The translations under genes were made by a program, and so were the position numbers. Shown here piece after piece: positions 40,880 through 59,950 of a stretch of 64,000 nucleotides of DNA (its first letter is position 1; the number at the start of each line of letters is the position of its first letter). A model generated the notes under the pieces. That model was not told where the DNA came from. It saw only the letters and a program-made list of their open reading frames with translations, and searched no databases. The stretch comes from Saksenaea vasiformis B4078. Its lineage: Eukaryota > Mucoromycota > Mucoromycetes > Mucorales > Saksenaeaceae. The DNA is taken from positions 51,374-115,373 of the forward strand of contig JNDT01002373.1 in NCBI GenBank assembly GCA_000697055.1, given 5' to 3'.

Positions 40880-42259
40880 AAAGACGCGGGGGGGGAGAAA
40901 AATACGTGAGCGCTTTTATAGGTCGCTTAAAAAAGGTGGGGAATGCCTGTGGTTTAACAAAAAAACGCTTATTTGCGGTGTCGATCAAATCATAAGGTAT
41001 CCATGTGACCTTCAGCTCACAAGCTCACAGTCCCAGTCTTTTTCCCGTCATCTGGTTCACCACTTTCCTTAGATAAGCGGACGTTTGATCCAATAGTTGA
41101 ACATAGCTTCACTGCTAGGTCGCTCGTATCCATGCTTTGGTCAGTTTGTGCCACATTACGTTTCAGGCTACGCTTCGCCAGTTCGCCGTGACACATCAAA
41201 CCGAAGATACCAGGCTCCGACAAGGTAAAGAGGAACCAATAGAACAATCTGTGGATACCGTCTTTTTTTGTATGTGTGGGGAAAAAAATGTTCGATGGAA
41301 TATTCCCACGTCATGACACGTCCCCCGGTAACCCGGTAACATCAAGCCATTGTATCAAAGGCTGCGTATGTCGTAGATGAAGTCAGACACCTGTTTCAAG
41401 ATGAAAGGACCAGAAAACGTCTTCGCACGACATAATTAATTTCATGAGATGAGAGCAATCCCTGGAACAATGATTGCCTATAAGTGGTATAAAGACACCA
41501 TATATGCAAATCATCCCGGAAAGGGTAGAACAAACATGATTCCACCAAAGAATTCCATTGATCCCTGCTTAGTTTCAACAACCTCTGTATACTCTGTCTC
41601 ATTATGGTTTTCATCTACACAGTCACTATGTGTCTCCATATTCATAACTACGAGCATGGAGGACGTATTTCTTGCTGATAGAACAACAATGTTCTGTGAA
41701 CGAGGTTGGAGAAGACATTTCGTAGATGAACTAGACTGGTACTCTCAGTACTGAAAGCAGATTTGCACCACATCGCGAATGGTGGTAAGATCGATTCGAA
41801 TGGCATGACCAGAGACAAAGTTTATGATACGGCCGTGCGCATAAAGACTGTGACGTTTCGCATCATTCGGGAACAGGCCCCGTCATGCGTCAAAGCCTCC
41901 CCACTGTGATACAATGTTTGCAGATAGAGGAGGTTTACATCGAGCAGTGTCGATTACTTTTGAATATAACTTTTAAGTTGTGCGCGGATAACTCAGTTCA
42001 TGTACCGTCTGGATTCTGCACGATTTCCGACAGTCTTTTCAGGCATCTGAGCCACTCATTATCACAGAACGTTGGATTCAAAGGTGATAGGAGAAACTTG
42101 TCTTATTGGTCAACACAGAAGGAATATCCGCAGAAAGAGAGAATGTATGTAGAAGAACAAAATGAAAGGAATCATAAATCTGTTTGTGTTTTTTTTTTTC
42201 TTTTTTTTCTTTTTTTAGAGTGATGGTAAAATCATAGAAAGAAACATAAAAAAGAAACA
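40800..42259. other. Intergenic stretch
   Basis: Promoter side of acetyl-CoA synthetase and 3' side of TUP1. Near the Acs start there is an A/GA-rich tract (about 40811-40892), i.e. a CT-rich promoter on the Acs strand. A 76-residue minus frame at 41017-41247 (contains VKLCSTIGSNVRLSKESGEP) has coding-like composition but no family. A T run is at 42188-42216. Confidence 0.4.
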
Positions 42260-51275: not shown

Positions 51276-52429
51276 TTATTCGTTAAATGGAAAGAGATGG
51301 CCAAACTTAAAATGTTGGACAACCGGCACCTTTTTGAGTACTTCGGCAATGTACATCTTGGCCATCCCAGAATTAACTTTGTTCCAAGACATCACCGCGG
51401 AAATATCGTGCAACATCGGTGAATGTTCATGAAATGGTCCTCGTTTAACCTAGCACCGATCTTAATTCTTTTTTCCTTTTCTTTCCTTTTCCCCTTTACC
51501 TCATGAATATACTGAATACATCGAAAATACATGTAATCTTTGGCCATGGCATCGACGATATCTTTTTGCAAAATGGATTTGGGTTTCAGTCGAGGGTGAT
51601 CTAAATAAATAGTGGGTTATAGCCCCTTCCCTTTTCTTCATGGTGTCTGTGATTCCTTACCTAGAAGCTGTGCGCTTCCCCATACATAAGGAAGAAATTG
51701 ATGATCGTCTAATCCCCAAACACCATGGCTTCCTGCTGGCTCAAGGGTATACCGTCGCTGGATCTTACGTACCAGCTCTAAATAACGTACGAAGATTCTG
51801 GTGACAATGGCCTGATAATCCCTCTCTTCAAATCCACCTAACATTGCTACTCCGCAAAGCCAGGCAAAGAAGTTAAGCTCGTGGCCAGATCCATAGTCAA
51901 TCCTCGTTCCGTTGCCAAATCCATTGACAAGATAAAAGCTGAGTTCTGGGATAGCCACATGCAGCTCCAATGCCAAACTCTGGCGCATCAACGCATCTGC
52001 ATGCTTGTTTTTCTTAACACCTGCCTTAACCAGCTATTTCCTTTTTTTACCTCTTCCAGCTTTTGTAACCATTGTCGAAAAGCCTTGTTGCCAAATCGCT
52101 GAGGATTCTCCAATGGCGGAAACTCAGCTAACCAACCATCGAGTTTATCCAACATATCCAGAATGCGCAGTGTTTGCTTGTAATAATAAACAAGATCAAT
52201 TTTTTTTGAAGAGCAATAATAACAGACTTACAGGAGACATATGACATGCGTCAGATATTGTTTTCTTCGAGACACTTTGATTAAGCAAAACCATAAATGT
52301 CAGCAATCGCGCAAAAGCTTTTGAACGTGTAAATGGGTCAATGTCGATTTGGGTATGAATGCATTTCTTCGGCTCTTCACAGGTATAAGTAGGTAGTAAT
52401 TGAGGCAACTTGTCTTGTATAGCTTCCAT
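51276..52429 (-). CDS. PP2A phosphatase activator PTPA (Rrd type peptidyl-prolyl isomerase)
   Basis: Five exons right to left: 52232-52429, 52051-52176, 51661-52003, 51500-51600, 51276-51449; 313 residues starting [24 protein letters not shown]/Rrd proteins activate PP2A-like phosphatases and show prolyl isomerase activity. Family blocks: [33 protein letters not shown] with [52 protein letters not shown] and [35 protein letters not shown], and [16 protein letters not shown]. The third exon's start is ambiguous: acceptors giving introns of 26, 38 or 47 nt are all in frame. I chose 47 nt (52004-52050) because shorter introns are not seen elsewhere in the window. It shares a 209-bp divergent promoter with the orphan at 52639. 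Confidence 0.94.
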
Positions 52430-53057: not shown

Positions 53058-55593
53058 TTAATCTTCTTCCTCTTCTGCTGTACTAAGCCATTCAATAAAC
53101 TTTGCACTCTTCCTTTCGATCTCACTGCCTTGTTCCAGTGATTCATACCACCAGTGATACACATCTTCGTCCACTAAATCACTATCATACCAGTGAGATA
53201 GTACAACGGCCGACTTCGATATAAGTGTTGTGTTCCTCTGCGTCACAAACTTTTCCCAAGCTTTTAATAGAAGTCGTTGATCAGCTGCGGTTTTAACAAA
53301 CTAATCTGATGTGTCAGAAATATGTGCTACATATACAATGCGTATGACGTACCGTGCGGAAAAGAGTGCTACGTGCCTTAAGCACCGCCAGGACGTTACA
53401 CGGCGCACCGTCCTTTCCTGCATCTCCCAGTAAACTGGAAAGAAGGATATATAGCAATTGTGGTTTGGAGATATCATTACGCATTTCGATCTTTGTCACT
53501 TCCTTGACATCATCTGACAATTTTCCGTTGACTGTCGAAACTTGGTTATGTTGCTTAAAGAATTTGTTGAGGTCTGCAATGATGGCTTCCTCCTGGGAGA
53601 TCTTAATCGTCGTTGGCGAGGCTGTCTTGGGAGGTGAAGGTGTTCTATTTTTCGGCTGAATGAGAAACATAGCCTCAAAAAAATTTTTTTCTTACATCTG
53701 CAATTTGGCCTGTTCTTCCTTCGATAAATGCAAAATTTTCATCCAAGACTTATCTGTCTCCTGTACATGACGTTAAAGAACCACGTCCTTCTTTTTGATT
53801 CTTTTACTTACAACAACGTCACCATCCAGAATCTTCTTTAGAGATTTGGCATCATCTGCAGGTGCCTTAGGCACAGGTGCCACAATTGTTCTCGGAGCGG
53901 AAGGCTTTGCAACTTGTGTAGACAATTTCGAAAAATCATCAATGGTTAAGTCCAACTGACGACTGACGTCTTCAGCACTAAATCCAACACGTATTTTAGC
54001 TGATATTCCCTGGTGACGTGCCGTATTACTTGCCTGTGTGAGGGTATGGAAGGCGGGGTTGGCGCCTTTTGAGGGCTCGATTGACGTTCCAAAATGCGCC
54101 CGCTGTCGTTAGTGGGGCGTGCTCTCCATGAACCTTCCAACTGTTCTGCCTTTTTTTCAACGGCAGCAGCAGCAGCAGCAACTGCAGCATCACCCTCATA
54201 CTGTTGCTTGGGTCTCGATTGTAAACGCTGTCCATTTTCACGTTCTTCTGGTTGACGATGGTTGAATACAGGTCGCTCCTTCAGTTCGTGTTCACCATGG
54301 GCTAGCGTAAATGACAAGTGTCAGTCTTGTTGGATCCACTCTATTCCACTTACCAAAGTGGCATTTTGGACCATACTGACAAAACTTGTCCTTCATGAAA
54401 CGCTCACACAACTTTGTCTTGTAGAGCGGATTACTGTCGTTGAAGGTGGGAGCGACGACGACTTGCGGTTTACCATTGGTTTCTTCCGTTCGCTCTCGGA
54501 GCTCAGTAATCCCATGTGCAAACGTGCACTTGCCACCATAAGGACATTCACCTTCCGTTTCAAAACGCTCGCAAAGACGGGTCTTGTAGAGGGGATTGGA
54601 GGTATTGTCTTGTGGAGCGGCACGCTGACGCTGCGAAAAAGCCTGTTGCGCAGTATCCTGGGACAGGCGGGGTTGAGCGGGCTCGGGCCGCGGTCGTTGC
54701 TGGAGTTCTGAATCCCCATTTGTATATCTGAATCTTTCGGGCTCGCGAGCGTTCCCGTTGCTTCGCGGCTCGTATGGCTTTCGGCGTGCCTGCTGTCTCA
54801 CCTTTGGCTTTGCCTCGATAAATGACTGGGCATATTTGAACACGTCCTGCATGCTTTTGAAAATGACCTTTTCGGTAGCAACATGTTGGTTACACCACTG
54901 CAAATGCACACCTTCTGCGCTGGGTAACAGACGAGCATGGTTATCAAGGACCTGAGCGAGACGGTATATGACTTTTTTCGGGCTTTAAGCGCTTCTGTAT
55001 TTAGTCTCTATGTTTCATTATTAGTTCAACTTACCGGGTTCCTGAAAGATATTTAAGTTCAATTTTAAAACCTTCTTCAATACGAAGTTCTTTGGGACTC
55101 AATCCTGTCGTTTCAAAGGTTTCGCGAAGAGCACATCTATAATCCGAGGTGACATGAGACGACGAAAAGGATGATGCCATTTCCGCTTACTGTATTTCGT
55201 CTTCTTGACCAATGACCTGCCCTTTGGGACAAAACCAGTGCTTTCTGTTGCTAAAAGAGTCGTTTAATAGTAAAAACTCGACGTTTCGCTGCAATCGATA
55301 TATGAGTAATCCGGCGTATAGATTCGGTTGGGAAGGTTTGTCCATGTGGTGAATAAATTAATAAAATAAACAGAAAACGGCAGCAAGACGAAAAGAGAAG
55401 AAAGAAATGGCCAATTCCGTTGACTGTTGCGGCGTAGAAAAATGGGTGTCCAAGGATGAATGAAGAATAGAGAGGAAACAAGGGATTGCCTTCGTTTATT
55501 TGTGACCTCAAAGACCAAATCCGAACTCAGCTTCCAGCAACCAATAGAATCAACTTTGGTTTTTGCTGGTATGAAGTAATAGGCATCTTTCAT
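53058..55593 (-). CDS. Nudix domain - tandem CCCH zinc fingers - W2 domain protein
   Basis: Nine exons right to left: 55507-55593, 55191-55288, 55035-55136, 54354-54982, 54034-54301, 53812-53977, 53696-53760, 53353-53644, 53058-53300; 649 residues. Residues about 10-135 form a Nudix fold of the Ap4A-hydrolase style: VDSIGCWKLSSDLVF, VEFLLLNDSFSNRKHWFCPK, Nudix box GQVIGQEDEIQCALRETFET (Gly52 to Glu70; T71 replaces the second Glu of REUxEE), KVIYRLAQVL. Two TTP-type C-x8-C-x5-C-x3-H fingers follow a YKT-R/K-LC lead-in (Cys233-His252; Cys288-His307). After a low-complexity linker, about residues 490-649 match a W2/eIF5-C HEAT domain (SKPQLLYILLSSLLGDAG, SHWYDSDLVDEDVYHWWYES, FIEWLSTAEEEED with Trp and acidic end). 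Intron 53978-54033 is GC-AG. Domains are firm; the combination and its function are not known to me. Confidence 0.85.
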
Positions 55594-58311: not shown

Positions 58312-59950
58312 ATGGCTACTGATACCTACACCTACCACGAAGGATTTGGAAACCACTTTACCTCGGAAGCGTTACCAGACGCCCTGCCTAAAGGTAAGCT
58401 TATCAGTGATCAACCATCGTGAACTGACGTCGTTTAATAGGCCAAAATACTCCTCAACAATGTCCTTACAATTTGTACGCTGAACAGCTGTCTGGAACAG
58501 CATTCACCGTTCCTCGCACGCATAACCGTCGAAGGTACGTACCTTGGAATCCCCGATTTTGATTAATTAAGATCCGTTTAATAGCTGGCTCTATCGTATC
58601 CGGCCTTCTGTGGTTCACACCCCGTATCAACCCGATAAGAACGAACTTTTAGTCTCCAGATTTGGCGGCAAGGACGATGTGATCACACCCACGCAGATCC
58701 GCTGGAGTCCTTTCGACCTACCTGGCGACAACGAAAAGGTCGACTTTGTGCAAGGTCTAAAAACATTGGCTGGTGCTGGTGAACCTTCATGCCGCTCTGG
58801 ATTGGCCGTTCATATCTACACCGCCAATCAGAGCATGGGGCGTAAAGCATTTTACAATAGTGATGGCGACTGGTTGATTGGTAATGATCGGAAATCGAGA
58901 TAATGGGTTCCTAACGGTACGGTCTGTTTACAGTTCCTCAGCAAGGTCGTTTGGATATCACGACCGAATTTGGAAAAATGATGGTGGCTCCCAACGAGAT
59001 TTGTGTCATCCAACGCGGTATCCGGTTCTCGGTTTCTCTGCCAGATGGACCAGTGTAAGTTTTGCAGTCATATAAGAGACGGTTTGATTCCTAAAGAAGG
59101 CGTTCAGGCGTGGCTACATTCTCGAAATATATGGTTCTACATTTGAATTACCCGATCTTGGCCCTATTGGCGCTAACGGTCTTGCAAATCCTCGCGATTT
59201 CCTAACACCTACCGCGGCCTACGTAAAAGAGGATGGTGTGGCATGGAAGATCGTTACCAAGTTCAATGGCGAGCTCTTCGTCGCTAACCAGAATCACACA
59301 CCATTCGATGTGGTTGCTTGGCATGGAAATTATGCGCCGTACAAGTACGACCTCGCAAAGTTCTGTGTTATTAACACAGTCTCTTATGATCACATTGTAA
59401 GGGAAAAGGAACTCCGACTGTCTGGAAAAGCAATGTTCATTTTTGGTATACTAGGATCCTTCTATTTTCACCGTGTTGACGGCCAAATCAAACACACCTG
59501 GTGTCGCCATTGCCGATTTCGTTATCTTCCCACCCCGTTGGGCAGTCGCCGAGAAAACTGTACGTGGTATACAAATATACTGCAATCCTGGATTAACCGT
59601 TATATGCATTCGTTTTATATTAGTTCCGACCACCTTATTTCCATCGTAATTGCATGTCCGAATTCATGGGATTGATCTTGGGTGATTACGAAGGCAAGTC
59701 TGGCGGATTTCTCCCTGGTGGAGGCTCTTTGCACAGCATGATGACTCCCCATGGCCCTGACGCCAATGTCTTTGAGGCAGCCTCTAAAGCCGAGTTAACG
59801 CCTGTGCGTGTGGGTGACAAGACCCAGTCCTTCATGTTTGAGACTAGCTTAATTCTGTCGTTGACAAAATGGGGTTATCAGACTTGTGGCAAGGTCCAGG
59901 AGGATTACTGGAAGGCATGGGCCAACTTGGAAAACAAATTTAGCGGTTAA
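58312..59950 (+). CDS. Homogentisate 1,2-dioxygenase
   Basis: Seven exons: 58312-58393, 58441-58534, 58585-58880, 58934-59054, 59108-59396, 59455-59559, 59624-59950; 437 residues starting [20 protein letters not shown]. Opens the ring of homogentisate to maleylacetoacetate in tyrosine/phenylalanine catabolism (fungal hmgA). Family blocks: [150 protein letters not shown]. The iron ligands His336, Glu342 and His372 (human 335/341/371) are present. Length fits the family and all splice phases agree. Its partners fumarylacetoacetase and maleylacetoacetate isomerase are not in the window. Confidence 0.97.

Follow-up and report, generated by a model that had tools for sequence, protein, structure and literature searches.

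Gene model

The gene considered here lies on the minus strand, at 53058-55345, of a 64,000-nucleotide stretch of the Saksenaea vasiformis B4078 genome (contig JNDT01002373.1); the whole stretch is called the window below, and positions are counted from its first letter. The gene is predicted to have 8 exons and 7 introns and to code for 639 residues. In one spliced frame, the protein combines three domain types, each above its Pfam cut-off: a Nudix domain (NUDIX, PF00293; residues 14-121, 31.4 bits, cut-off 21.1), two CCCH zinc fingers (zf-CCCH, PF00642; 68.2 bits for both fingers together, cut-off 20.5) and a W2 domain (PF02020; residues 566-639, 42.7 bits, cut-off 30). A preliminary description of the locus had proposed such a single chain, and these scores bear it out. 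In gene order, the parts of the gene are the following.

55191..55345, minus strand: exon 1, start codon and N-terminal half of the Nudix domain; the start is backed by relatives
55035..55136, minus strand: exon 2, Nudix helix
54354..54982, minus strand: exon 3, C-terminal part of the Nudix domain, disordered linker, finger 1 and the greater part of finger 2, all in a single open frame
54034..54301, minus strand: exon 4, end of finger 2 and a disordered region
53978..54033, minus strand: GC-AG intron of 56 nucleotides, donor AG|GCAAGT; the frame stays in register with relatives
53812..53977, minus strand: exon 5, disordered region
53696..53760, minus strand: exon 6, carrying a conserved motif of the type K-x-W-M-K-V-V-E-L-S
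53353..53644, minus strand: exon 7, first part of the W2/HEAT domain
53058..53300, minus strand: exon 8, C-terminal part of the W2 domain and stop codon

The introns measure 54, 52, 52, 56, 51, 51 and 52 nucleotides in gene order, and six of the seven have GT-AG borders, the remaining one being GC-AG. The GC-AG intron replaces a 20-nucleotide intron of the first model and resembles the other introns in size.

Judging from aligned N-termini, the most likely start codon is at 55345 (MDKPSQ...). The protein begins with MDKP, MDKS, MDRS or MDRP in 24 of 27 mucoralean relatives, the exceptions being P0002 (a model that begins inside the domain), P0024 and P0059. Of the 90 proteins whose Nudix N-terminus can be read, 85 have no residues before the matching methionine. 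The joined exons of the preliminary description stand, while its start at 55593 and its ninth exon are not supported by the N-termini of relatives; the latter therefore give 8 exons and 639 residues in place of 9 exons and 649 residues.

Relatives and integrity of the fusion

The protein search gave 107 matches at E 1e-3 or better, and the profile search 110 matches at 1e-30 or better. The closest match of the protein search is from Apophysomyces ossiformis (79% identical). The named matches belong to early-diverging fungi, namely mucoralean, umbelopsid, glomeromycotan, mortierellid, basidiobolid, kickxelloid/dimargaritid, chytrid, neocallimastigid and blastoclad lineages, with the exception of one ciliate zinc-finger protein (P0107). 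None of them is from Dikarya; 7995 candidates were scored in each search, so that absence from Dikarya or from other eukaryotes is not thereby proven. P0106 and P0107, which are probably not true members, sit within the 107 matches and are kept in all counts.

The family alignment comprises the 107 matches and the Saksenaea protein, 108 sequences in total. All three modules are covered in 83 of these, fingers and W2 in 11, Nudix and fingers in 10, and fingers only in 4; some of the incomplete proteins are fragments. A Pfam scan of 70 of the 107 matches (E up to 0.001) found zf-CCCH in 70, W2 in 69 and NUDIX in 57. The folded N-terminal part of P0001 is the Nudix domain. Over 79 well-covered proteins, pairwise distances in the Nudix domain are correlated with those in the W2 domain (r = 0.894; maximum of 1000 permutations 0.15), and the modules have therefore travelled together. 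A protein search with the Nudix domain only yielded 4 proteins among 9 candidates; as these appear to be pieces of the same family, no closest stand-alone Nudix relative was found. In the Saksenaea genome, the same domain retrieved only the gene's own exons.

The architecture has been described in a survey (Pasterny, Barua, Mancera, Muszewska 2025, PMC12210691) under the name fungal NUDIX subfamily A, a set of 84 exclusively fungal proteins that are distant relatives of human NUDT2 and mostly carry W2 and zf-CCCH domains. The Saksenaea protein, with its NUDIX, zf-CCCH and W2 domains and distant NUDT2 relation, has the features of that subfamily. It was originally supposed that no characterised protein had this domain order. 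The architecture is already known from the subfamily A listing; its lack of characterisation holds, as the literature searches, within the texts they covered, returned no study of a Nudix-CCCH-W2 protein apart from this survey, whose consulted text reports no function.

It is very improbable that annotation or assembly has made adjacent genes appear as one. The GC donor in one intron of the predicted model is the point in favour of such an artefact. Against it, an unbroken frame at 54292-54984 runs from the C-terminal part of the Nudix domain through the CHF of finger 2, so that the Nudix tail and the fingers cannot belong to two genes; the two-gene reading is ruled out by this frame together with the module coverage in relatives. 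Mis-assembly is very unlikely because the same module order occurs in other fungi, and the survey independently assembled a group of 84 fungal proteins, most of which have these domains (PMC12210691). Relatives also show long unbroken open reading frames: P0009 (686 residues on a contig of 2222 bases) and P0042 (678 residues on a contig of 2180 bases) are both full-length, and their contigs hardly extend beyond the frame. These short contigs are presumably transcripts, which would support a single transcript in relatives.

Metal site and pocket of the Nudix domain

The Nudix features are located as follows.

54811..55321, minus strand: Nudix domain, residues 9-143, with two introns inside
55100..55222, minus strand: degenerate Nudix box GQVIGQEDEIQCALRETFETTGL, with the intron 55137-55190 inside

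The complete REUxEE metal site of NUDT2-type hydrolases is not present. The Saksenaea protein reads RETFET, with Thr61 (codon 55109-55111) in the place of the second Glu of EE. This position is acidic in none of 93 aligned proteins, where it is occupied by I (40), A (14), T (13), L (13), V (9), S (2), N (1) or M (1), and it is likewise acidic in none of the 93 boxes located alignment-free among 126 proteins. As a control, ten other Nudix matches of the Saksenaea genome were considered: EE was present in 8 of 8 boxes read and in a ninth judged by eye (L031), whereas no box could be read in the tenth (L032). The remaining acids are kept unevenly. Glu occupies the RE position in 60 of 92 proteins, the first position of EE in 60 of 92 (Asp in 23 more) and the loop position in 61 of 100. 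Where all four acid positions could be read (91 proteins), none had kept all four, 33 had kept three, 49 two and 9 one. The RE position is Asn in 20/20 Glomeromycota and Ala in 4/4 Umbelopsidales; both the RE Glu and the first EE Glu are retained in 27/27 Mucorales, Saksenaea included. Tyr81, Lys88 and Lys41, the counterparts of residues that contact phosphate and adenine in hydrolases of diadenosine tetraphosphate (Ap4A), are among the most conserved Nudix columns. From these alignments, the domain looks catalytically dead with its pocket kept.

Several points weigh against a non-enzymatic, ligand-binding domain. The candidate catalytic base (first Glu of EE) is acidic in 83/92 proteins and the Saksenaea protein itself retains three of the four acids, therefore weak hydrolysis is possible. 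In the survey, the subfamily A motif is said to be well preserved and to have at least two glutamates (PMC12210691). His36 is kept in only 74/90 proteins, and Ser, Asn or Thr stands where human Ap4A hydrolase has Glu130, which contacts adenine. The Nudix domain is unreadable by occupancy in 15 of the 108 sequences, some of which are fragments, and may therefore not be essential.

An unusual but active hydrolase is an unlikely explanation. With fewer metal ligands, such an enzyme would still cleave Ap4A, diadenosine triphosphate (Ap3A) or RNA caps, and the fingers would direct it to U-rich mRNAs to remove caps or alarmones. The retained acids of Mucorales and the mostly acidic base agree with it. 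Published docking ranks Ap3A and Ap4A high across new subfamilies (PMC12210691), the base and the number of metals vary among Nudix enzymes (PMC5526541), and the YmfB entry 4nfx bears the title 'atypical hydrolysis mechanism'. Nevertheless, the Glu lost in every readable protein matches Glu60 of DHNTPase, a ligand of both metals M1 and M2 (PMC5526541), and two acids or fewer are left in 58/91 proteins.

A Nudix domain serving as a scaffold, that is, as a protein- or RNA-binding surface of the CFIm25 kind without a small ligand and without nucleotide sensing, is a tentative possibility; fingers and W2 would then act as in the regulator proposed below. Catalysis has decayed while the fold was kept, and Ala137, Met130, Phe75 and Asp29 are strongly conserved though they lie outside the known ligand grip. 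CFIm25 offers a precedent, binding RNA and Ap4A at a shared site (PMC4856261). The high conservation of Tyr81, Lys88 and Lys41 argues against the scaffold and is consistent with a retained ligand pocket.

Predicted RNA binding by the zinc fingers

The two fingers are placed as follows.

54514..54573, minus strand: CCCH finger 1, residues 223-242, with the lead-in YKTRL at 54574-54588
54297..54408, minus strand: CCCH finger 2, residues 278-297, with the lead-in YKTKL at 54409-54423 and the intron 54302-54353 inside

Both have the spacing C-x8-C-x5-C-x3-H (C223, C232, C238, H242 and C278, C287, C293, H297), and their best PDB match is TTP, 1m9o. TTP itself has the lead-in (R/K)YKTEL and fingers 18 residues apart (PMC12710939); another source gives the linker as about 10 residues and the lead-in position as E/K (PMC3616968). 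In all 108 sequences, each finger has R, K or Q at the position of the lead-in Glu, and Arg in finger 1 of Saksenaea departs even from the E/K version. The linker measures 35 residues in Saksenaea and 26-102 residues (median 36) across the 108 sequences, never 18.

According to PMC3616968, which reports the MEX-5 work at second hand, the basic lead-in residue of MEX-5 goes with little discrimination between AU-rich elements and poly(U), and its change to Glu abolished poly(U) binding. In Tis11 proteins, the inter-finger distance sets the spacing of A residues (PMC3616968). By analogy with MEX-5 and Tis11, we predict from the basic lead-in and variable linker that the fingers bind U-rich RNA in a relaxed manner and tolerate different spacings; the expected targets would be loosely spaced U-rich motifs, not strict UUAUUUAUU. 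AU-rich targeting, as first suggested, is therefore too specific for fingers with these lead-ins and linkers.

Five other TTP-type finger exons occur in the genome (L007, L008, L009, L010 and L012), and the gene is consequently not its only TTP-like gene. Four of the five have R, Q or K for the lead-in Glu, so this feature is not peculiar to the Nudix-CCCH-W2 family.

The W2 domain and the surrounding genes

The C-terminal features are the following.

53070..53622, minus strand: complete W2/HEAT domain, about residues 470-636, with the intron 53301-53352 inside; Pfam core 53061-53282
53713..53751, minus strand: short motif KSWMKILHLSKEE before W2, consensus K-x-W-M-K-V-V-E-L-S

The W2 HEAT domain is complete and its aromatic-acidic boxes are conserved. 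Its subtype varies with the method: the single-sequence search points to eIF2B-epsilon and the profile search to eIF5, pairs from the own genome score alike, and the fold comparison lists eIF2B-epsilon, the absence of eIF5 among its entries excluding nothing. Pfam gave no match in the Saksenaea protein to the eIF-5_eIF-2B domain PF01873 at E up to 1, nor to MA3-type or other eIF2B domains. The link to initiation factors drawn earlier is upheld as probable.

The short motif is conserved in most of the family within an otherwise variable stretch before W2. Two eIF2-beta-like genes are present in the genome (L044 on C61 and L045 on C601), and both have three lysine runs next to the conserved domain. 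Another W2 protein without an explanation (L005; C422, match 90566-90817, plus strand) has an open frame of 579 residues with acidic and coiled-coil-like stretches and a W2 score of 45.9 bits, and its scanned 330-residue part contains no further Pfam domain above cut-off. A further W2 exon (L003; C593, match 41161-41391, minus strand) resembles the eIF5-mimic proteins (5MP/BZW), the W2 match alone being confirmed.

The gene is flanked in the window by the following.

51638..52033, minus strand: exon of PTPA (phosphotyrosyl phosphatase activator), 171.9 bits
58571..59950, plus strand: homogentisate 1,2-dioxygenase; the frame 59088-59675 scores 139.7 bits, the wider extent being judged by eye

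Proposed mechanism and significance

There is about an even chance that the protein is a non-enzymatic, mRNA-bound regulator of translation initiation. The Nudix domain would bind, without efficient hydrolysis, either a nucleotide or cap-like end or a dinucleoside polyphosphate, for instance Ap4A. The fingers would hold U-rich mRNA stretches with lower discrimination and looser spacing than TTP, and the W2 domain could contact the lysine boxes of the eIF2-beta tail, and possibly eIF3c, like eIF5, eIF2B-epsilon and 5MP. Occupancy of the Nudix domain by its ligand might alter RNA or eIF2 binding, and initiation on the bound mRNAs would then follow a nucleotide signal; this is the least certain step. 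The first parts of the scheme rest on sequence and fold, and the coupling between modules is inferred. It had been suggested that the protein acts on or senses its substrate. Sensing fits this scheme, while acting on the substrate is disfavoured because the metal-binding Glu is lost in all 93 readable proteins.

Ap4A is a product of tRNA synthetases and is raised under stress. A more specific and rather unlikely version of the regulator would be a fungal alarmone receptor, in which a dead Ap4A-hydrolase domain reads Ap4A and gates the access of eIF2 to finger-held U-rich mRNAs, coupling tRNA-synthetase stress to message-specific initiation.

The fusion is real and conserved. Its architecture has been published before, and the literature found contains no study of its function. 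What is new is that the metal site has decayed while the pocket is intact, that the fingers combine a MEX-5-like lead-in with a long linker, and that the W2 domain is of the eIF2 type. Ap4A was described in 2016 as a proposed stress signal, the meaning of its binding being unclear for most protein ligands (PMC4856261). In this conserved fungal protein, an Ap4A-type pocket that lacks one catalytic metal ligand is tied to RNA-binding fingers and to a contact domain of the eIF2 type, which opens the question of Ap4A ligands to tests by ordinary biochemistry. As the enzyme is apparently dead while its binding pocket is intact, the protein is a candidate sensor controlling the translation of chosen mRNAs. 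Caution is also advisable in regarding subfamily A as hydrolases.

Comparison with known systems

The NUDT2-type Ap4A hydrolases (human 3u53, C. elegans 1ktg, Plasmodium 5cfi) share their Nudix fold with the Saksenaea protein, which differs from them by the absent second Glu of REUxEE and by the fusion to fingers and W2. TTP/ZFP36/Tis11 proteins have in common with it the two C-x8-C-x5-C-x3-H fingers and the YKTxL lead-in; unlike them, it lacks the lead-in Glu and has a linker of 35 instead of 18 residues. The TTP/ZFP36 family carries a C-terminal CNOT1-binding motif. The basic lead-in is shared with MEX-5. With eIF5, eIF2B-epsilon and 5MP/BZW, the Saksenaea protein shares a complete W2 HEAT domain in which the aromatic-acidic boxes are conserved, whereas the other Pfam domains sought from these factors (PF01873, further eIF2B domains, MA3) gave no match here; where 5MP/BZW would have an N-terminal MA3-type HEAT domain, the N-terminal fold is Nudix. 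CFIm25/NUDT21 also has a Nudix fold that binds RNA and Ap4A (PMC4856261), which is a likeness of function only and not of membership, as it belongs to another Nudix family (PF13869 according to PMC12210691) and has other partners. The architecture is the same as in subfamily A (PMC12210691), which is treated there as an enzyme subfamily, whereas here the second Glu of EE is lost in all readable members.
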